Positions 7,268-57,242 of a stretch of 64,000 bases of DNA are shown here, piece after piece; position 1 is the stretch's first letter; each line of letters begins with the position of its first letter. The notes below the pieces were generated by a model that saw only the letters and a program-made list of their open reading frames with translations, made no database searches and was not told the DNA's origin. Source of the stretch: Acidobacteriota bacterium (GTDB taxonomy: Bacteria > Acidobacteriota > Aminicenantia > S016-38); the NCBI GenBank assembly GCA_015486055.1, contig WFSJ01000018.1, positions 98,179 to 162,178 on the forward strand, given 5' to 3'. The position numbers were made by a program, and so were the translations under genes.

Positions 7268-7624
7268 ATGGTAATTCATATTCTTAAAGCGAAACTTCAC
7301 AATCTTAAGGTTACCGATTCAAACTTGAATTATCAGGGAAGTATTGGACTTGATGGAAGATGGATCAAAGAGGTCGGGATATTTCCCTATGAGAAGGTTC
7401 AGGTATATAACATATCCAATGGGGAAAGGTTTGAGACCTATATGATTGAGGAAGAAGCAGGTTCTAAGAGGGTTGTTATGAACGGAGCTGCTGCAAGGAA
7501 AGCTCAGATAGGGGATAAGATAATAGTTGCTTGCTATGCCATTCTGGACGAGTTAGAGGTCGCAAAATTTAAGCCGAGAATACTGATATTCGATTCTGAA
7601 AATGAGATAAAAGAGAGGAAGTAA
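7268..7624 (+). CDS. panD: Aspartate 1-decarboxylase (pyruvoyl-dependent)
   Basis: Makes beta-alanine from aspartate for PanC. 118 residues. The self-cleavage site is visible as NYQGSIGLD: cleavage between Gly and Ser would create the pyruvoyl group. Further family segments are ISNGERFETY, MNGAAARKAQIGD and ACYA. It starts one base after the panC stop with AGGAGG upstream, completing a panBCD operon. Its stop is separated by only three bases from the end of mazG on the other strand. Confidence 0.97.
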   Translation: MVIHILKAKLHNLKVTDSNLNYQGSIGLDGRWIKEVGIFPYEKVQVYNISNGERFETYMIEEEAGSKRVVMNGAAARKAQIGDKIIVACYAILDELEVAKFKPRILIFDSENEIKERK

Positions 7625-7627
7625 GCT

Positions 7628-8398
7628 TCAAGGCTCAGAGGGCTTTGTCTTTTCCCATATTTTGTTCATTTCTTTAGGGGAAATGTCCTTCAATGCCTTC
7701 CCTTCTTTTTCTGCTTCCTCCTCTATCTTTTTGAATCTATTCCTGAACTTTTTAGTTGTCAGTTTCAACGCTTCCTCGGGATTTACACCGAGAAGCCTGG
7801 CCGCATTTACCACTGAGAAAAGGATATCCCCAAGTTCCTCATCAATTCCTTTCCCCTTTTCTATTGCATTCTTAAGCTCTGCAGTCTCTTCATCTATTTT
7901 CTCAAGGGCACCTTCTGAGCTTTTCCAATCGAACCCGACCCTTGACACTCTTTCTCCTATGAGGAAGGCTTCTAAAAGGGCAGGGGCAAATTTTGGGATA
8001 CCATCAAGTAGGCCCTTCTTTTCCTTCTTTTTAAAGCTGTCCCAGTGTTTGAGAACTTCCTCCGCAGTTTCGTATTTTTCATTTCCGAATACATGGGGGT
8101 GGCGGGAGATCAGTTTTTCTGAGACGAAATCCGCCACTTCCTGGGCAGTAAATTCCCCCTTTTCCTTGGCTATCTGTGAGAGGAAAACGACCTGAAGTAA
8201 AAGGTCACCAAGCTCTTCCTTTAACTTCTCGTAATTTTCCTCTTCTATGGCGTCTACAACTTCATATGTTTCTTCCGAAAGGTATTTTATGAGACTTTTC
8301 TCTGTCTGTTTCCTATCCCATGGACAGCCTTCAGGGCCTCTGAGTTTTTCCATAATATTTATGAGTTTGCAAAAAGCTCTACAATTTTTGTTTTCCAT
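7628..8398 (-). CDS. mazG: Nucleoside triphosphate pyrophosphohydrolase
   Basis: Two-domain all-alpha NTP pyrophosphatase that hydrolyses (d)NTPs to monophosphates, a house-cleaning role. The first domain carries GCPWDRKQTEKSL and the metal-binding EELGDLLLQVVF; the second repeats the fold with EELGDILFSVVNAARL. 256 residues from the ATG at 8398; an upstream in-frame ATG at 8422 directly abuts the ATG of the divergent gene and would lie on the wrong side of the -10 box, so I prefer 8398. No Shine-Dalgarno site; predicted leaderless from the shared box at 8408-8415. Confidence 0.93.
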   Translation of the reverse strand: MENKNCRAFCKLINIMEKLRGPEGCPWDRKQTEKSLIKYLSEETYEVVDAIEEENYEKLKEELGDLLLQVVFLSQIAKEKGEFTAQEVADFVSEKLISRHPHVFGNEKYETAEEVLKHWDSFKKKEKKGLLDGIPKFAPALLEAFLIGERVSRVGFDWKSSEGALEKIDEETAELKNAIEKGKGIDEELGDILFSVVNAARLLGVNPEEALKLTTKKFRNRFKKIEEEAEKEGKALKDISPKEMNKIWEKTKPSEP

Positions 8399-8407
8399 AG
8401 CTTTGTT

Positions 8408-8415
8408 ATTATAAT
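8408..8415. promoter_or_regulatory. Symmetric bidirectional -10 element ATTATAAT
   Basis: ATTATAAT reads as TATAAT on both strands. On the plus strand the box ends 7 bases before the ATG of the DUF1844 gene (8423); on the minus strand it ends 9 bases before the mazG ATG (8398). A weak plus-strand -35 (TTGTTT, 16-base spacer) is present. Neither gene has a Shine-Dalgarno sequence. Confidence 0.6.
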
Positions 8416-8422
8416 TGTTCAT

Positions 8423-8683
8423 ATGGGAAAAAAGGAAGTTATACCTCCTCTTGAATTCTCTTCTATCTTACTTCCATTTTACACAAAAGCGCTGGAAGCT
8501 TTGGGTGAGATTGAAAAGGGTGGAGTAAATCTTCCCTTAGCTTCAAGACTTATTGAACTTATAGACCTTCTTGAAGAAAAGACGAGGGGAAATCTTTCAA
8601 AGGAAGAAAAGGAAATGATAACTTCAATTTCAGCCCAATTGAAGATTATCTATTTTAAGAGGAGTAAGGGAAATGAAGCTTAG
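8423..8683 (+). CDS. DUF1844 family small protein
   Basis: 86 residues matching the DUF1844 pattern: an N-terminal FSSILLPFYTKALEALGEI segment, then LPLASRLIELIDLLEEKT, RGNLSKEEKEMI and a final helix. The family's function is unknown; it is predicted to be a helical soluble protein. It probably starts leaderless at 8423. It overlaps the next gene by 11 bases, so it heads an operon with the TPR/zinc-ribbon membrane protein and the PATAN protein. Confidence 0.8.
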   Translation: MGKKEVIPPLEFSSILLPFYTKALEALGEIEKGGVNLPLASRLIELIDLLEEKTRGNLSKEEKEMITSISAQLKIIYFKRSKGNEA

Positions 8684-10421
8684 GTTTATTTCGATTTTTG
8701 TTTTTTTAGGCTTTTTATTCAGTGGAGAGATCGCTCGAGTCGATAAAGCTCTAAAGCTCTTTTATCTTACAGACAACCATTGTGCTTTTGAATTGGAGAA
8801 GCAGCACCTTTTAAATTTGATGAAATTTAGGGGCATGAATTTCTCAAGAGGGACTACTGAGACTTTACTTCCTGTTGCAATTTCGAGGGGAGATGTAAAG
8901 ATAATGGAGTTTTTAAGGAGAATAGATGGGGAAAATTATAGAATTTACTTTGAGGAAGGGAAAATCTTCTTGAGGAAAGGAAAGATTATAAAAGCTTTAA
9001 GTTTATTTTGGATTTCCTATAAGAAATATGTTAACCAAGGAAGAGGATTGGTAAAAGCGATATATATTTATACAAGGGTCATTCCTCTTTCCTTTTTGAT
9101 ATTTCTTCTTTTCTTATCCTTAGCTCTTTTTGCTTGGTATTATCCTCTTTTGTTTCACGATTTAAAGGAGACAGCCGGGGGCAGAGTGAAGGGATTGTTC
9201 CTTTTCATAGCTGCGCTTTTGTTTCCCTTTGTCCTGCTTTCAGGTCCAGGGTATATAGTTTTCTATATACCAGCCCTGTTTTCCCTTTATCTTGAAGAAG
9301 GTTTTTCGAAAAGACTTCTTATACTTACACTTATTTTCGCTCTGGTTTCGGTGGTTATCCCGAAAAGAGAGATTGTGAAAAAGAATCCTGAGGCTTCTAT
9401 AATGGAGAAACTGTATTATTATGGGGAAGATGCTGAAAATTTGAGAGAGGCAGAGAAATATTTACAGAAAGATTGGGATGAAGATGTTGCATACTTTCTT
9501 GCATTGTCTTACGAGAAGCTTGGAAAATTAAAAAAAACTGTATCAATTTACAATAGAATCTTAAAAAGGAATAGGAATCATGTTAGATCTCTTGTCGCCC
9601 TTGCGAATATAAGATTCAAATCGGGGGAAATTCAGAACTCAATTGACTTGTTAAGAAGAGCGATAAATGTTTCCGGCAGCAAATTAATTCCTCTTCATGA
9701 CTTGTCCTATATCTTTGAAAACATGGGGAGGGTAAACGAATCCTCAAAATTTTCTACTGAGGGGTGGAAATTATATGGGAGAAAATGGGATGAGTTTTCA
9801 AAAACCAATCCTGATTTTGTTATTTACGGATGGGGGATAAGAGATATATTCTGGAAATTTTTTGGAAGAGGGGTTACTTCTTTAAACTCTGCTCCCCGAG
9901 GACTGGCGACGATTTATGCATTTTCCAAGCCAGTTCTAATTTCCCCTTTAATTTTAGGTTTTCTTCTTATGCTCTTTGTATTTTACTTAAAGGAAAAGTT
10001 CCCCTCAAACTTGGGAAGTGCAATTTACTGCCAGGGATGTGAGAAACCGATATGTGAAAGGTGTTCCCATTATTATTACAAAGGATATTGTAATGAATGT
10101 ATGGGTAGGATTGAACTTCTAAAGGGCAATGCAGGCGACACATCTTCGGTAATTATGGGAAATATAAAGAAAAAAAGATTGAGGAGATTGCCGAGGGAAA
10201 TTGTTTTGAGCATTTTGGATTTTCTCTATCCTGGCTCCAGCCTGTTTCCGAAGGGAAAGATATATACTCCACTGTTTTCCATGCTGTATGTATATTCTTT
10301 GAGCATCTTCTTTTTTGGACTTAAAATTGGATTTCCACTTTCCCTCCATTTTTTATTTCTTGCATTCCTTTTTTATGTGTTATCGGTAGTTTATATTTAC
10401 ATCGTTGAGCGGAGGTCATAA
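8673..10421 (+). CDS. Membrane protein with TPR repeats and a zinc-ribbon-like motif
   Basis: 582 residues, no confident family. An N-terminal signal-like helix is followed by several hydrophobic segments around residues 125-235. A soluble stretch of about 245-370 has TPR-like helix pairs (AYFLALSYEKLGKLKKTVSIYN, split over residues of the repeat). Another membrane helix lies near residue 425, then four CxxC-type pairs: C453/C456, C461/C464 and C473/C476, the last two around a His, resembling a B-box or zinc ribbon. The C-terminus has two to three more membrane helices. Ends with a TAATG overlap with the PATAN gene. Probably a scaffold at the membrane; role unknown. Confidence 0.75.
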   Translation: MKLRFISIFVFLGFLFSGEIARVDKALKLFYLTDNHCAFELEKQHLLNLMKFRGMNFSRGTTETLLPVAISRGDVKIMEFLRRIDGENYRIYFEEGKIFLRKGKIIKALSLFWISYKKYVNQGRGLVKAIYIYTRVIPLSFLIFLLFLSLALFAWYYPLLFHDLKETAGGRVKGLFLFIAALLFPFVLLSGPGYIVFYIPALFSLYLEEGFSKRLLILTLIFALVSVVIPKREIVKKNPEASIMEKLYYYGEDAENLREAEKYLQKDWDEDVAYFLALSYEKLGKLKKTVSIYNRILKRNRNHVRSLVALANIRFKSGEIQNSIDLLRRAINVSGSKLIPLHDLSYIFENMGRVNESSKFSTEGWKLYGRKWDEFSKTNPDFVIYGWGIRDIFWKFFGRGVTSLNSAPRGLATIYAFSKPVLISPLILGFLLMLFVFYLKEKFPSNLGSAIYCQGCEKPICERCSHYYYKGYCNECMGRIELLKGNAGDTSSVIMGNIKKKRLRRLPREIVLSILDFLYPGSSLFPKGKIYTPLFSMLYVYSLSIFFFGLKIGFPLSLHFLFLAFLFYVLSVVYIYIVERRS

Positions 10422-11365
10422 TGGGGAAAAATGCTGTTAAATTCAAGGGTATAGATTTTACAGGAGTTCTCCAGACTATCGGGATGCAAAAATCCACAGG
10501 GGTGCTTAGGATAGATGGAGGAAAGGATACCCATTTCTTTATTTTCATAGAGAGAGGAAGAATTGTTGGCGCCGATACATTCCCGAAGCGGCTTGATGAA
10601 AGACTCGGGAATATATTGATGCTTCAGGGATACATAGACAGGGAGGAACTTTCAAATGCTATAAAACTTCAGAAATCCACCAAGAAAAAGCTGGGGCAGG
10701 TCCTTGTCAAATATGGATTGGTAGATGAAGATGTAGTTGAGAATACTTTAAGGAGGCAGATAGAGAGGATTTTCTTTAAGCTTTATACATCACCAATTCA
10801 AAAATATGTTTTTGAAACAATAGATGAAATAGAGGAAGCCAACAGGATGATAAAACCGATACCCATTGAAAACTTTATCTTAGAAATCGCTGCAAATATT
10901 GATGAACTTCCCGAGATAAGGAAAGAGATTTCCTCCGACTCAGTGGTTTTTGAAGCTTCAACTGATTTTGATAGGACAAAGGTGGAATTGGTTTGGGGAG
11001 AAGAAGCGACAGTGGACGATCCGGGGAAACTTACCTCAGTTGAACTTCATGTTCTGAACCTTATTGATGGTATAAATCCTGTTGAGAGAATTCTTCTCAT
11101 GAGTTCCTACGATGAATTCACCACACTAAAGGCACTCTGTTCTCTCAAGAAAAAAGGAGCCATAGTAATGACTGGGGAAGAAAAGGAGATTGAAACCATA
11201 ATAAAGAGCATGGAAAGGCAGGAGATTAAGACAGGATCTTCCACATCCCTTATTATTGTATCGATTTTGATAATAATCTTGTCCATACTCTCTCTGACAA
11301 TTTCTCAATTTTCTCTCTTCTGTACATATTTTAAGGATTTTTCTTCCTATTTTCTTTTCAAATGA
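10421..11365 (+). CDS. PATAN (DUF4388) domain protein with C-terminal membrane anchor
   Basis: 314 residues. The N-terminal ~90 residues fit the PATAN/DUF4388 domain (TGVLRIDGG, FIERGRIVGADT) known from bacterial signalling and motility proteins. Next is a segment like the N-terminal domain of type II secretion ATPases (LGQVLVKYGLVDEDVVENTL), then a winged-helix-like stretch (LLMSSYDEFTTLKALCSLKKKGAIV). A single hydrophobic helix closes the protein. Start overlaps the upstream stop as TAATG and the stop overlaps ribF by 4 bases. A regulatory or scaffolding role with the two upstream genes is an inference. Confidence 0.8.
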   Translation: MGKNAVKFKGIDFTGVLQTIGMQKSTGVLRIDGGKDTHFFIFIERGRIVGADTFPKRLDERLGNILMLQGYIDREELSNAIKLQKSTKKKLGQVLVKYGLVDEDVVENTLRRQIERIFFKLYTSPIQKYVFETIDEIEEANRMIKPIPIENFILEIAANIDELPEIRKEISSDSVVFEASTDFDRTKVELVWGEEATVDDPGKLTSVELHVLNLIDGINPVERILLMSSYDEFTTLKALCSLKKKGAIVMTGEEKEIETIIKSMERQEIKTGSSTSLIIVSILIIILSILSLTISQFSLFCTYFKDFSSYFLFK

Positions 11366-12264
11366 AATTATTTATGGAGCCTCCTGAAAAGAAGGGATCT
11401 TATATAACCATAGGGAATTTTGATGGAATTCATATAGGCCATAAGGAAGTAATAAGGGCTGCTAAAGCCAGATCGATTGCTCTCCGGCATCCTCTTGTAG
11501 CTGTTACATTTTGGCCACATCCTTCAGAATTTTTTGGAAAGAGAGTAAAACTAATTCAAACTCTGGAACAGAGGCTCCTTTCCCTAAGGGAAATGGTAGA
11601 TGAGACCCTTGTCCTTCCATTTGGGAAGGTGCTCTCAGGAATGAACCCTTTAGAATTTGTGAAGTACCTCCGAGATAGGATGAATTTTAAGGAGATATTT
11701 GTCGGAAAGGGCTTTAGATTTGGGAAGGGAAGGGTAGGGGATGCTTTCCTTCTTGAGAATTTTGGAAGGGAAATTGGATTTAGGGTTTGGGCCTTAGAGA
11801 AAGTTTATTGTGGGGGTGAGAAGGTATCCAGCACAAGGATAAGGAAACTTCTGCAAGAGGGAAAGGTAAAAGAAGCATCTCCATTGTTAGGGAAGCCCTA
11901 TTCCATAGAAGGGTTCAAAGTTAGTGGGGAAGGCCTCGGTAAGAAGCTCGGATTTCCCACTGTGAACATAATTCCCCTCAATGAAATCCTTCCCAAAGGG
12001 ATTTACAAAGGATATGTAAAGATAAGAAAGAAATTCCTGAGGTCTGCAATTTACATAGGTAATAGACCTACCTTCGGAGGGAAGGAAGTTATATTGGAGG
12101 CATATTCAATAGATTCAGAAGTTGAAGTGGAAGAAGGAGAAAAGGTTGAAGCATTTCTCTTAAAAAGAATAAGGGATGAGAGGAAATTTTCCGGGGCCGA
12201 GGAGCTTAGGAAATATGTTCAGAGGGATGTAAAGAAAATAATAGACAGTGAAGATATAATTTAA
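11362..12264 (+). CDS. ribF: Bifunctional riboflavin kinase / FAD synthetase
   Basis: Makes FMN from riboflavin and FAD from FMN. 300 residues, normal for RibF. The N-terminal adenylyltransferase has GNFDGIHIGHKEVI and VSSTRIRKLLQ; the C-terminal kinase has GKKLGFPTVNI, GIYKGYV and YIGNRPTF. It starts by ATGA overlap with the PATAN gene. FMN and FAD made here would serve NadB, the Rnf flavoproteins and ApbE. The last codons contain a TATAAT that likely drives the transporter genes. Confidence 0.97.
   Translation: MKLFMEPPEKKGSYITIGNFDGIHIGHKEVIRAAKARSIALRHPLVAVTFWPHPSEFFGKRVKLIQTLEQRLLSLREMVDETLVLPFGKVLSGMNPLEFVKYLRDRMNFKEIFVGKGFRFGKGRVGDAFLLENFGREIGFRVWALEKVYCGGEKVSSTRIRKLLQEGKVKEASPLLGKPYSIEGFKVSGEGLGKKLGFPTVNIIPLNEILPKGIYKGYVKIRKKFLRSAIYIGNRPTFGGKEVILEAYSIDSEVEVEEGEKVEAFLLKRIRDERKFSGAEELRKYVQRDVKKIIDSEDII
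12255..12260 (+). promoter_or_regulatory. -10 element for znuACB inside the ribF tail
   Basis: TATAAT at 12255-12260 lies in the last ribF codons and ends 6 bases before the znuA ATG at 12267. No Shine-Dalgarno sequence precedes znuA. This predicts an internal leaderless start for the metal transporter operon. No clear -35 box is seen. Confidence 0.45.
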
Positions 12265-21319: not shown

Positions 21320-22093
21320 TCATGGAGTGAGCAGGGAAAGAACCTTTTCCCTGAGGTAATATGAATTTTCAATAGCATATCCATGGAAATCATTATTGAA
21401 GAGAGCATACTTTCTTCCTGGAAGGGAAACCAGCCTTTCGGCAAGGGAATCGAGATAATCCTTCGGATAATTAGAGGAATATCTGGTGGTCGGTCCATGT
21501 CGCCTTATATAATATGTGGAGAAACCTTCAGGATATTCATCGGGCATCCCTTTCCAGTCAGTTATTACAATGCCCGCCCTTTTTTCTTTTAGCAGACAGA
21601 AAGCCTTCTCGTTCCACCATGTGGGGCTTCTAAATTCAAAGGCGAAGCTTAGGTCTTCTGGTAGGAAGGAGAGGAAATTTTTAAGAAGCTCTATATCAAA
21701 TTTCAGACTGGATGGAAGCTGAACGAGAATAAGCTCGAGCTTATTATCGAGTATCCTGTAATTTTTCAAATGCCTTTCTATTTCCTCCCTTTTTGCCTTT
21801 AATTTTCTTAAATGCGTAATTGTCCTTGATAATTTCACAATGTAGCTGAAGTAAGGTTTTGCCCTCTTTCTCCAGGAAATAAAAGTTTCCTCTTTTGGAA
21901 GGCGGTAGAAAGTCACATTCAACTCTACAATAGAAAAATACAGCATGTAATGTTCAAGCCAGGAAGATTGATTTAATTTTTCAGGATAAAAAATTCCTTT
22001 CCAATGAGGGTATGAAAACCCTGAGGTCCCGATCCTTATCTTTGCCTTATCCAATCTCTCAAGCTGGGAATGTCCAACCTTTTTATACACCAT
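21320..22093 (-). CDS. DUF72 family protein
   Basis: 257 residues of TIM-barrel-like DUF72 (YecE-type). Typical segments are IGTSGFSYPHWKGIFYPEKL, VELNVTFYRLP, FAFEFRSPTWW, VITDWKGMP, TYYIRRHGP and YALFNNDFHGYA. The biochemical role is not known. The ATG at 22093 has AAGGAAGGGG two bases upstream, although it lies 58 bases inside the preceding gene. Confidence 0.9.
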   Translation of the reverse strand: MVYKKVGHSQLERLDKAKIRIGTSGFSYPHWKGIFYPEKLNQSSWLEHYMLYFSIVELNVTFYRLPKEETFISWRKRAKPYFSYIVKLSRTITHLRKLKAKREEIERHLKNYRILDNKLELILVQLPSSLKFDIELLKNFLSFLPEDLSFAFEFRSPTWWNEKAFCLLKEKRAGIVITDWKGMPDEYPEGFSTYYIRRHGPTTRYSSNYPKDYLDSLAERLVSLPGRKYALFNNDFHGYAIENSYYLREKVLSLLTP

Positions 22094-22497
22094 TTCCCCT
22101 TCCTTTTGAGGAAAAAAATCTCCCCCGATTCATATCCAAAGGAGGAACCTGCAAGGAGATACAATTTTCCCTGTATTTTTCCAACAGCCCTTACCTTTAT
22201 CTTTGCTTTTGCCCAATAATTTCTTGTTTCTATGTCATATAGGATATATCTTATGGATATTTTCTGGAAATCTTCCCTGTATGTATTCCAATCTTTTTCT
22301 GCCTCCTTTATCCCATATCCCAGTTCAGAAAAGTCCTGACACAAACAGGATGGAGCTGAGGGAGAAAACTTTTTCACCAATTTCACGCAATTTTTCATTG
22401 TTTTCCTAATTTTTGAGGACTCTGTAAAAAGGATTTCATACCCTGTAATAATTATGGAAATTCCCAAAATCAGAGCAAAAAAATTCTTAAACCTCAT
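22036..22497 (-). CDS. Small signal-anchored protein of unknown function
   Basis: 153 residues. A hydrophobic N-terminal helix (FFALILGISIIITGYEILF) suggests export or membrane anchoring. The rest is mixed with two Cys close together (SCLC) and a beta-rich C-terminal half ending WIRQR. No family is recognised. It is divergent from the NtrC-type regulator and shares its -10 element, and it overlaps DUF72 by 58 bases. Confidence 0.65.
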   Translation of the reverse strand: MRFKNFFALILGISIIITGYEILFTESSKIRKTMKNCVKLVKKFSPSAPSCLCQDFSELGYGIKEAEKDWNTYREDFQKISIRYILYDIETRNYWAKAKIKVRAVGKIQGKLYLLAGSSFGYESGEIFFLKRKGKWCIKRLDIPSLRDWIRQR

Positions 22498-22504
22498 CCT
22501 TTCT

Positions 22505-22512
22505 ATTATAAT
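22505..22512. promoter_or_regulatory. Symmetric bidirectional -10 element ATTATAAT
   Basis: A second ATTATAAT. On the plus strand it ends 6 bases before the ATG of the NtrC-type gene (22519); on the minus strand it ends 7 bases before the ATG at 22497. The whole space between the two start codons is 21 bases. Neither gene has a normal Shine-Dalgarno site. Confidence 0.6.
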
Positions 22513-22518
22513 AAACCT

Positions 22519-23829
22519 ATGGGAAAAGTTCTTATGCTCTCCAGTAAAAAAGAGATAAAAGATTTTTTGAAGGGCTATGAAATAGAAACTGTAAGCTCTT
22601 CTCCTGAAGCTTTTTCAAAGATTTTCTCTTCGAATCCAGAGGTGATAATCGCAGAGGAAGAGGGATGGATAGGGGATCTTCTGGAAGCATCAGAAGATGA
22701 GGGAATACCTGTTGTAGTTATAACCCTGGACCGGAATATTTCACATTCCGTTGACCTTATAAGAGAAGGGGCCTTTGACGTTCTTATATATCCTTTTAAA
22801 AAAGAGGAGCTTATACTCTCTGTGGAGAAAGCAGTGAATAGAACGAAGGTTCACGGGAAAGGGAAATGGGGGTTTTCCCTTGTGGGAGAGGCAGAGGTAA
22901 TGCAAAAACTATGGGAGGATATTAGAAGAGTCTCAAGAGCGGACACGACTGTTCTTATAAAGGGGGAAAGCGGAAGCGGAAAGGAACTTGTTGCTAGGGC
23001 AATTCACCTTCTTTCTGCGAGGAAAAAAGCTCCTTTTGTAAGCCTTAACTGCGCGGCTATACCTGAAGAGTTGATAGAAAGCGAGCTTTTTGGACATGAA
23101 AGGGGCTCATTTACAGGAGCGACGGAGAGAAAGATAGGTAAATTTGAAGCAGCGAATAGGGGGATTCTCTTTCTGGATGAGATAGGAGAAATGAGTTTAA
23201 AAACTCAGGTAAGACTCCTGAGGGCAATAGAAACAGGTGAAATAGAAAGGATTGGCTCGAATAAAATGATATATGTTGATGTAAGAATAATAGCTGCCAC
23301 CAACAGGAATTTAGAGCGCCTTGTAAAAGAAGGTAGGTTTAGAGAGGACCTTTATTACAGAATAGGTGTGGTGATAATAAAAGTTCCCCCTCTAAGAAAG
23401 AGGAAGGAGGATATACCCATCCTTTTTAATTATTTTATGAAGAAGTTCTGCGAGGAGAATAATTATCCTGAAAAGGAAATATCCCAGAAGGCAATGGATG
23501 TTTTAAGAAGTTATTCTTGGCCCGGTAATGTTAGGGAGCTTAAAAATCTTGTGGAAAGGCTTATGACCATGGTGAATTCCTCTGTAATAGATATAAAAGA
23601 TATCCCTGATTACATTCTTGTAGGAGTTGACGAGGAAAAATCCGCTGTTTTCGGGGCAGATAATCTAAAGGATTTCAAGCAGAGGGCAGAAAAACTCTTC
23701 ATACTCCAGAAGTTGAAGGAAAACGATTGGAATATCAAGAAGACAGCAGAAGTCCTTGGCACCCCCAGGAGTAATCTTTATAGAAAGCTCATGCAATATG
23801 GGATAATAAAAGGCGAGGAAAAGGAGTAA
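22519..23829 (+). CDS. Sigma-54-dependent regulator (NtrC family) with a degenerate receiver
   Basis: 436 residues: receiver-like domain (1-115), AAA+ sigma-54 activation domain (about 125-360), Fis-type helix-turn-helix (about 390-432, [21 protein letters not shown] region). The AAA+ part has Walker A GESGSGKE, Walker [12 protein letters not shown] and the sigma-54-contact loop as GSFTGA instead of GAFTGA. The receiver has lost its chemistry: the acidic pair is S8 S9, the phospho-acceptor Asp is E46, and the usual Lys before PF is Tyr. Activity is therefore likely independent of phosphorylation. No histidine kinase gene is nearby. Start predicted leaderless. Confidence 0.9.
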
Positions 23830-35675: not shown

Positions 35676-36332
35676 TCAAGGAATTAAGAGCCTTATTTGG
35701 ACTCTATCGCTGTAACGAAAGCCATATTTGAAAGCAAGAAGAGCAACCTTTTTTGCATTACTTTCAAGCTCTTCCTTTGAGGATGATAAGGGCATGAGAA
35801 ATATCCTGTCTTTCGGAATCTTCAGTCTATACCTCAATTCTTGAACCTCCCTGACTTCTTTCTCATTCTTCACAACGAACTTGAATATTGAATTAAGACT
35901 CAGGAACTTTGAGAGCACAGAAGGGATTATCCTTTTTTCCTTCTTTACCCCGGAATTTGAGAGCTTTGGAGATACGTTATATTTTAGCCCTTTGAGAGAG
36001 AGGGGAGGAAGAGTCCCATTTGTCTCGATTTCTATAGATGAAAATTCCCCTTTTAATACAGCAAGGAGAGAAGATAACCCTTCCCTTTGAAGAAGAGGCT
36101 CTCCTCCAGTTACAATGAGATTATAGGCTTTACCCTTTATTCCCAAGATTTTTTTTTCTGCCTTCTCCAAACTTATTCCCTTTCCCTTTTCTAAGGCTTC
36201 AATGGTATCGCAAAATGAGCATGCCAGATTACATCCCGAAAGGCGAAGAAAAACTGATGGGGTACCTACTAAAGGGCCTTCGCCCTGAATTGACTTAAAA
36301 ATTGAGTGGTAAAAAAGGCTATCCCCTTTCAA
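35676..36332 (-). CDS. queE: 7-carboxy-7-deazaguanine synthase
   Basis: Radical SAM enzyme of queuosine/7-deazaguanine synthesis acting after QueD. 218 residues. N-terminal FKSIQGEGPLVGTPSVFLRL and cluster motif CNLACSFCDT, with GGEPLLQ and IEIETNGTLP. Overlaps queD by 14 bases. queC and queF are not in the window. Confidence 0.94.
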   Translation of the reverse strand: MKGDSLFYHSIFKSIQGEGPLVGTPSVFLRLSGCNLACSFCDTIEALEKGKGISLEKAEKKILGIKGKAYNLIVTGGEPLLQREGLSSLLAVLKGEFSSIEIETNGTLPPLSLKGLKYNVSPKLSNSGVKKEKRIIPSVLSKFLSLNSIFKFVVKNEKEVREVQELRYRLKIPKDRIFLMPLSSSKEELESNAKKVALLAFKYGFRYSDRVQIRLLIP

Positions 36333-36741
36333 AGCTTATCTTTTCCTCCCTCCCCTTTTCCATTCTTGCAAAGCCGCTCTGGTTTTCTGTCTCGAAAACT
36401 TCAACCTCTGCCCAATTCAAGCCAAGTTCTGAAATTAACCTCCAAGCAATAAGGATAGAGAGGTTTTCAGCTGTGGGATTTCTGTCAAGCAAGAAGAGCC
36501 TCTGACCTGCATCCTTAAGCACAGGAACGAGTGGATCCTTGTTGAAGAGTATTACTCTGTGGTCAAGCTCGTCCACTATTTTTTTTACAGTCCCAAAATC
36601 GGCTACCATTCCCCAGTTGTTCAATTCCCCTTCAGTTCTTATCCTTACCTTGTAAGAATGACCGTGGAGATACCTGCATTTTTCTCGGTGTTGCCATATG
36701 CGATGAGCAGCGTGAAAACTTCTCTGGACCCTTATTTCCAT
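36319..36741 (-). CDS. queD: 6-carboxytetrahydropterin synthase
   Basis: Converts dihydroneopterin triphosphate to 6-carboxytetrahydropterin. 140 residues. Zinc ligands are in FHAAHRI and LHGHSYKV; further marks are DFGTVKKIVDELDH and a Glu in EVEVFET. No Shine-Dalgarno; the ATG lies 6 bases after a TATAAT, so it is predicted leaderless. Confidence 0.94.
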   Translation of the reverse strand: MEIRVQRSFHAAHRIWQHREKCRYLHGHSYKVRIRTEGELNNWGMVADFGTVKKIVDELDHRVILFNKDPLVPVLKDAGQRLFLLDRNPTAENLSILIAWRLISELGLNWAEVEVFETENQSGFARMEKGREEKISFERG

Positions 36742-36794: not shown

Positions 36795-37079
36795 ATGAAT
36801 CTTAAAGAAGCTGCTGAAAAACTTAAAATACCTCTCAGAAAGGTTGAAGAGTGGAGAGAAAATTATGAATGGTTGAAGCGTGAGAAAATAACAGAAATGC
36901 ATATTAATGTTCTCAAGAGGATCCAGGAATTCGAGAAAGAGGGATACACCCTCGCAGGAATAAGGAGAAGGCTTTTTGAGGAATTCGGTCCTCCGATGAG
37001 TCACTTTTCTCTTTTGAAAATAAGGGAAGGACTCGCAGATTTATTGACTTTCCTTCGTTCCAATGGTAATATGCACTGA
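36795..37079 (+). CDS. Small MerR-like helix-turn-helix protein
   Basis: 94 residues. The N-terminal part (NLKEAAEKLKIPLRKVEEW, ITEMHINVLKRIQEFEKEG, YTLAGIRRRLFEEFG) follows the MerR winged-helix pattern, without an effector-binding domain. Short MerR-like proteins like this are common near tRNA and integration-host-factor type genes in several phyla; the target is unknown. It opens a long plus-strand run, and its tail carries the promoter of the following tRNA. Confidence 0.75.
   Translation: MNLKEAAEKLKIPLRKVEEWRENYEWLKREKITEMHINVLKRIQEFEKEGYTLAGIRRRLFEEFGPPMSHFSLLKIREGLADLLTFLRSNGNMH
37044..37072 (+). promoter_or_regulatory. Promoter of tRNA-Pro(GGG)
   Basis: TTGACT (37044-37049), 17-base spacer, TAATAT (37067-37072), inside the end of the MerR-like gene and 11 bases before the tRNA. 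Confidence 0.65.
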
Positions 37080-56456: not shown

Positions 56457-57242
56457 ATGAGCACACCGATACTCTCTATAATTACGATGGGTTCAATAGC
56501 TGCGATTTTTTCATTAATAATAGCAATAGCCTATAGAAAACTCAAGGTCAAGGTTGACCCAAGAGTTGAGGAAATTTTCAGTGTTCTCCCAGGGGTGAAC
56601 TGTGGAGCCTGCGGTTATCCTGGATGTCAGAACTATGCAGAGGCAGTAGCCTCAGGTGCTGCCCCTCCGAATAAATGCACAGTTGGGGGAGCTGAAGTGG
56701 CGGCCCTCGTGGCGAAAATTATGGGTCTTGAAGCGGGAGAAGTTGAGAGAAAAGTAGCAAGGGTTCTCTGTATAGGTGATAGAGAGAAATCAGTCTGGAC
56801 AGCGGGTTATGAAGGTCCTCAGACCTGTGCAGCTGCTAATGTTGCAGGAGGTGCAGGGAAAGCATGCTCCTATGGATGCCTTGGTTTTGGAGACTGTGTT
56901 AAGGCATGTCCATTTGATGCTATACGTATGAATGATAAAGGCCTCCCGGTTGTTTATGAGGAGAAATGCACAGGTTGCGGTCTGTGTGCAGAGGCTTGCC
57001 CCAGAGATATCATTGTTATAGAACCTATAGAAAAAAGAACCTATGTTTTCTGCAGTTCTCATGATTCTCCAAAGAGATCAAGGGAGGTTTGCTCAGTTTC
57101 ATGTATAGCCTGCGGAATATGTGTGAGGCTTTCACCCGAAGGTCTTGAGATGAAAGATAACCTTGCAATTGTGACAGACCCCGAAAAGGTCTCTGACCAA
57201 GCAATAGAAAAATGTCCAACAAAGGTGCTGTTTAAAATATGA
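56457..57242 (+). CDS. rnfB: Rnf electron transport complex subunit B
   Basis: 261 residues. An N-terminal membrane helix is followed by the 4Fe-4S domain CGACGYPGCQNYAEAV and further cluster motifs (CSYGCLGFGDCVKACP, CTGCGLCAEACP, CIACGICVRL). It is the likely ferredoxin-docking subunit. Last of the six core rnf genes and overlaps the RseC-like gene by 4 bases. Confidence 0.96.
   Translation: MSTPILSIITMGSIAAIFSLIIAIAYRKLKVKVDPRVEEIFSVLPGVNCGACGYPGCQNYAEAVASGAAPPNKCTVGGAEVAALVAKIMGLEAGEVERKVARVLCIGDREKSVWTAGYEGPQTCAAANVAGGAGKACSYGCLGFGDCVKACPFDAIRMNDKGLPVVYEEKCTGCGLCAEACPRDIIVIEPIEKRTYVFCSSHDSPKRSREVCSVSCIACGICVRLSPEGLEMKDNLAIVTDPEKVSDQAIEKCPTKVLFKI

Follow-up and report, generated by a model that had tools for sequence, protein, structure and literature searches.

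The two genes mazG and DUF1844 stand back to back with so little DNA between them that their arrangement raises the question of how either one is transcribed. In the window analysed here, a stretch of 64,000 nucleotides on contig C18 of a 1.86-Mb assembly (G000) from an uncultured Candidatus Aminicenantes bacterium, the two start codons are separated by 24 bases (8399-8422), and a box within them reads TATAAT on both strands, 7 and 9 bases from the respective ATGs. On these points our reading of the sequence agreed with a preliminary description of the locus. The features concerned are the following:

7628-8398, minus strand: mazG, nucleoside triphosphate pyrophosphohydrolase, 256 amino acids from the ATG at 8398 (Pfam PF03819, E=1.8e-39; start chosen via relatives)
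8408-8413, minus strand: TATAAT, candidate -10 element toward mazG, 9 nt 5' of the ATG in two family genomes (G000, G001) and 10 nt in five
8408-8415, no strand assigned: symmetric box ATTATAAT, proposed shared -10 element, identical in 7/7 family genomes
8410-8415, plus strand: TATAAT, candidate -10 element toward DUF1844, 7 nt 5' of the ATG in 7/7 genomes
8423-8683, plus strand: DUF1844 gene, 86 amino acids (Pfam PF08899, E=1.8e-13)

We consider it likely that ATTATAAT at 8408-8415 acts as a bidirectional sigma70-type promoter for both mazG and DUF1844.

The extent of the gap was defined by comparing G000 with six other genomes of its family (G001-G006; two genera, g1 and g2), whose MazG proteins are 65-74% identical to that of the window. 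In G000 and G001 a second in-frame mazG ATG is found at 8422, directly abutting the DUF1844 ATG (CATATG, 8420-8425 in the window), and a start there would place the box inside the mazG frame. This upstream start is lost in five of the seven genomes, with G002 having no ATG at the position and the frame of G003-G006 being closed by TAA, and we therefore take 8398 as the right mazG start. On the other side, the gene at 8673-10421 overlaps the 3' end of the DUF1844 gene and is followed by genes at 10421-11365 and 11362-12264 (RibF-like), and all four are probably carried on one transcript, a linkage drawn from gene overlap and sequence, as is the RibF name. At its far end mazG (minus strand, ending at 7628) converges with a panD-like gene (plus strand, ending at 7624), three bases apart, and is thus boxed in on both sides.

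Leaderless (TA-led) bacterial genes are known to carry a TANNNT motif about 10 bp before the start codon and no Shine-Dalgarno sequence (PMC3160421; Deinococcus-Thermus, PMC12340547), with the second base of the motif lying 8-14 nt before the start codon (PMC3160421). We surveyed 1266 long genes of G000, in stretches covering 1.78 of its 1.86 Mb, and found that the last T of TATAAT peaks sharply before ATGs, at -7 in 27 genes, -8 in 10 and -9 in 10 over a background of ~1-3, with a weak enrichment at -10 and -11 (3 and 3 genes), while permuted hexamers gave no comparable peak in the same genes. Genes were called by a simple longest-ORF procedure, in which misplaced starts would blur the -7 peak and not create it. 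Nearly all of the genes listed under this peak were without a Shine-Dalgarno sequence; perfect TTGACA peaked at -30 and -32, where a -35 element belonging to such boxes would lie, and TG preceded many of the boxes, as in extended -10 promoters. In most genomes of the class, TGnTATAAT-N6-ATG was likewise more frequent than its control. Given this sharp peak before ATGs lacking a Shine-Dalgarno sequence, G000 has a genuine class of leaderless TATAAT promoters. The genome-wide spacer statistics are those of G000; the sister genus was sampled by 400 kb of G004, where the leaderless peak was weak and only four short both-sided pairs appeared at a loose threshold. Our literature search returned no paper containing both the words leaderless and Aminicenantes, and the mazG/DUF1844 case points to such promoters in this group.

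Neither side of the gap carries a Shine-Dalgarno sequence. For DUF1844, the second base of TANNNT (A at 8411) lies 12 nt before 8423, within the 8-14 nt range, and the spacing of 7 nt falls inside the genome-wide leaderless peak, so that by its sequence the gene fits the leaderless class. For mazG, the corresponding base lies 14 nt from the ATG in G000 and G001, at the limit of the range, and 15 nt in the other five genomes, and the spacing of 9-10 nt is outside the main leaderless peak. Since a -10 element usually lies 6-8 nt from the start site and the box lies 9-10 nt from the mazG ATG, the mazG message would begin 1-4 nt before its ATG, and a leader of about this length is probably a better description than a strictly leaderless transcript. 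Both genes had initially been proposed to be leaderless, which the sequence supports for DUF1844 and which should probably be relaxed to a very short leader for mazG. A -35 element was sought on either side of the box, and no match exceeded 3/6, a weak TTGTTT lying on the DUF1844 side; the palindrome, moreover, excludes the extended -10 TG that is common among leaderless promoters of G000. Both directions are therefore expected to be weak to moderate.

The box was also compared with the other divergent genes of G000. Among 48 divergent ATG/ATG pairs lying 12-70 bp apart, boxes matching at least 5/6 positions were found 6-9 nt from the ATG on both sides in 8 pairs, where dinucleotide shuffles gave 0.27 (at most 2); 30 pairs had such a box on one side or both, compared with 6.1 in the shuffles. 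Two pairs of the window are compared here with the mazG/DUF1844 locus:

22036-22497, minus strand: left gene of a second pair, 153 amino acids, no Pfam match; G001 and G002 have similar genes at this position
22505-22512, no strand assigned: second shared ATTATAAT, 7 nt to the left ATG and 6 nt to the right ATG, gap of 21 bp
22519-23829, plus strand: NtrC-like sigma-54 activator, to the right in the second pair (Pfam PF00158)
36319-36741, minus strand: queD-like gene (6-pyruvoyl-tetrahydropterin synthase-like; named from sequence), with separate boxes here and a gap of 53 bp
36795-37079, plus strand: partner gene divergent to queD, 94 amino acids, from the divergent-pair survey

The queD orthologs in G003 and G006 share one ATTATAAT with their partner genes, again with spacings of 6-7 nt and a gap of 21 bp. 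The preliminary description knew of no leaderless pair as compact as mazG/DUF1844; the second pair of the window is tighter, and the queD pair of two relatives provides another.

Conservation of the box was then assessed across the family. All six other genomes keep the divergent pair, a gap of 24-25 bp and the exact ATTATAAT, and in an alignment of the seven gaps invariance is confined to the octamer, a base that flanks it and a single isolated position, leaving the box as the sole conserved block. Silent sites of mazG are near saturation over the same genomes: of the 32 fourfold sites at which all seven proteins agree in residue, only 2 are invariant and 30 vary (pairwise identity 22-83%). 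G004 keeps the exact octamer though its sampled 400 kb have a GC content of 53.6%. An AT-rich spacer that carries the octamer by accident and serves no function could be entertained for a single genome, as such an octamer is expected in ~0.5% of 24-bp spacers of similar composition. Two genera whose silent sites are near saturation retain it exactly, one genome of higher GC content included, which makes chance untenable and in practice excludes it. The seven genomes represent one family and do not count as seven independent tests.

The pattern of conservation further bears on whether one or both directions are used. The two hexamers share TATA and have two private bases each, and those belonging to the mazG direction only (8408-8409) are as fixed (7/7) as those belonging to the DUF1844 direction only (8414-8415). 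At one-way leaderless promoters of G000 the two bases 5' of TATAAT are free or TG-like, being AT in only 2/53 cases, both of which come from the second shared box at 22505-22512. In 7/7 genomes the NtrC-like gene has likewise kept its TATAAT, and the bases 5' of it vary; the hexamer lies 6 nt before the ATG in G000-G005 and 7 nt in G006 (TATAAT-AATCCCT-ATG). As the bases before a one-way TATAAT are free and almost never AT, and yet are fixed at mazG/DUF1844, a one-way promoter fails to explain the palindrome, and the data support selection for the palindromic form of the box throughout the seven-genome family. This makes it unlikely that the box is the leaderless -10 element of the DUF1844 operon only, with mazG transcribed from elsewhere and its side of the palindrome incidental. 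Such an arrangement would account for the spacing, which is fixed at 7 nt toward DUF1844 and drifts between 9 and 10 nt toward mazG, and for the position of the weak TTGTTT; it would leave the fixed mazG-only bases without a reason, and the alignment offers no other conserved -10-like element 5' of mazG, itself devoid of a Shine-Dalgarno sequence.

A perfect palindrome could also suggest that the box is mainly the operator of a dimeric regulator, such as a 7-1-7 box of the Fur/PerR type, instead of or besides a -10 element. In g2 a longer stretch, TAATTATTATAA, looks to us like part of a PerR box. The conserved 7-1-7 inverted repeat of a Fur/PerR operator was, however, not found: the octamer alone is conserved, and beyond it the second arm is not, reading CTTTGTT in G000 and thus differing in g1. 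As the octamer by itself is short for such operators and is placed much like the leaderless -10 elements of the genome, we regard an operator as highly improbable.

We return, then, to the bidirectional promoter. Experiments have established promoters that fire in both directions from symmetric -10 elements, and such promoters occur across prokaryotes (Warman, Grainger, Wade and colleagues; PMC10268837, PMC12825309). In these, the commonest distance between the two start sites is 18 bp, with 10 and 23 bp also represented; a reciprocal pairing of positions -7 and -11 is stressed, and other spacings occur (PMC10268837, PMC12825309). In E. coli, 24% of bidirectional promoters lie between divergent genes and produce two mRNAs (PMC10268837, PMC12825309). 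The mazG/DUF1844 box resembles them, as judged from its sequence, in that -10 hexamers on both strands overlap within one short element. It differs from them in its overlap: the two -7 positions of ATTATAAT are 7 bp apart, which would set optimal starts 21 bp apart, a distance outside the three that are commonest in E. coli, and both hexamers match the consensus at 6/6 positions. The 18-bp geometry, with its reciprocal -7/-11 pairs, is absent at the box; it is typical of bidirectional promoters and not required. A further difference from the promoters of PMC12825309 is that both start codons would coincide with the predicted starts or be only a few bases away, and the word leaderless does not occur in that 2026 paper. 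From TA-led genes (PMC3160421, PMC12340547), with which it shares a TANNNT near the start codon and the lack of a Shine-Dalgarno sequence, the locus differs in that those genes are described as one-way and here one element would serve two genes; the word divergent is absent from the main text of both papers. The box is thus best read as a known type of bidirectional promoter that is unusually compact and has two full-consensus -10 elements, and not as a new mechanism.

From this arrangement we infer transcription in both directions, with start sites and mutual exclusion as follows. Two full-consensus hexamers on opposite strands overlap by four bases (TATA), and RNA polymerase would open the same DNA whichever way it is oriented. 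Rightward transcription would begin no more than one nucleotide from the DUF1844 ATG, yielding a leaderless mRNA that probably runs into the downstream genes, whereas the leftward start would fall 1-4 nt before the mazG ATG and give an almost leaderless message. Both directions would depend on the consensus -10 element, and output would probably be modest. Occupation of one orientation would sterically block the other, in keeping with the early proposal that polymerase fires in one direction at a time. The orientations are indeed mutually exclusive at E. coli bidirectional promoters, but the five that were tested fired too weakly at baseline for the two directions to compete (PMC12825309). If read correctly, the mazG/DUF1844 box extends bidirectional promoters to leaderless pairs near the shortest possible spacer, which for two full-consensus boxes in the ATTATAAT overlap is 6+8+6 = 20 bp.

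As to how such a box comes about, the NtrC and queD pairs, unlike mazG/DUF1844, have family relatives with two separate leaderless boxes. In G001 and G002, where the ATGs of the counterparts of the 153-amino-acid gene and the NtrC-like gene stand 81 and 73 bp apart, the left gene has its own ATTATA at 7 nt and the right gene its own TATAAT at 6 nt, and in G000 the fused ATTATAAT has spacings that are likewise 7 and 6 nt. The gap of the queD pair is 53 bp in G000, 37 bp in G004 and 36 bp in G005. In G004 and G005 the boxes are separate and stand at distances of 6 and 6-7 nt from their ATGs; G003 and G006, with a gap of 21 bp, have a fused ATTATAAT spaced at 6 and 7 nt. A deletion running from the TATA of ATTATA to the TATA of TATAAT gives exactly ATTATAAT and preserves both spacings, and the existence of two-box relatives with the same or nearly the same spacings suggests that deletions between the TATA cores fuse promoters. 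Leaderless -10 elements lie right against the coding sequence, and a deletion can therefore fuse two of them with both start spacings kept. By the same route the mazG/DUF1844 box may have originated from back-to-back leaderless promoters (ATTATA...TATAAT), an origin suggested by the related pairs, with no two-box version of mazG/DUF1844 seen among the seven family genomes. An insertion duplicating TATA would give the same picture in reverse. On the tree G000 is sister to G001 and G002, which leaves the NtrC pair unpolarised; the queD pair alone is polarised toward fusion, and fusion would be its simpler history. We tentatively propose, as a possibility that falls somewhat short of even odds, that deletions between divergent leaderless genes have fused promoters at TATA into ATTATAAT at least two and perhaps three times in this family. 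Candidate cases are queD in G003/G006, NtrC in G000 and, earlier, mazG/DUF1844, and each fusion would tie two genes to either-or transcription. If true, fusion would be a specific birth route of bidirectional promoters, unlike the view that single -10 elements are inherently near-symmetric, and it is the part that a specialist might not expect. The seven shared-box genomes and the two-box related pairs make a natural before-and-after set for the origin of bidirectional promoters and for whether exclusive firing matters.

Relatives had been proposed at the outset as a check on the mazG/DUF1844 box, and they bore it out within the family only. In relatives of the class outside the family, mazG and DUF1844 are still divergent, with spacers that are mostly longer (~30-330 bp, measured to the mazG match) and leaders that are often Shine-Dalgarno-like, and no shared box was found at the pair. 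As these relatives keep the pair without the box, the shared box is limited to one family and most likely arose on its stem.

Several further arrangements were noted in passing. Five sites in G000 have the form CAT-N-ATTATAAT-N-ATG, three of which (C16, C18:220114, C21) were dropped because they did not have an open frame on each side. On contig C47 of G000, ATTATAAT lies exactly centred (21/21) in a 50-bp gap between divergent genes (end/start at 56863 and about 56899-56914), both with Shine-Dalgarno-like leaders, making it a shared box in a Shine-Dalgarno-led pair. In seven divergent pairs of G000 with boxes at leaderless distance (on C18, C24, C53 and others) 33-35 bp separate the two -10 elements (gap ~52-57 bp). 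This looks like a second preferred geometry, and it would put each -35 region into the spacer of the other promoter. In G005 (L187) and G004 (L188) the left neighbour opposite the NtrC-like gene is another one (MFRRLTE..., judged DUF72-like by eye), and the two boxes lie one base apart (ATTATAcTATAAT). Finally, TGgTATAATTtCCCCATG / TGgTATAATTCCCCCATG recurs near many contig ends in G003, as a leaderless mobile gene would if it were present in multiple copies and interrupted the assembly.
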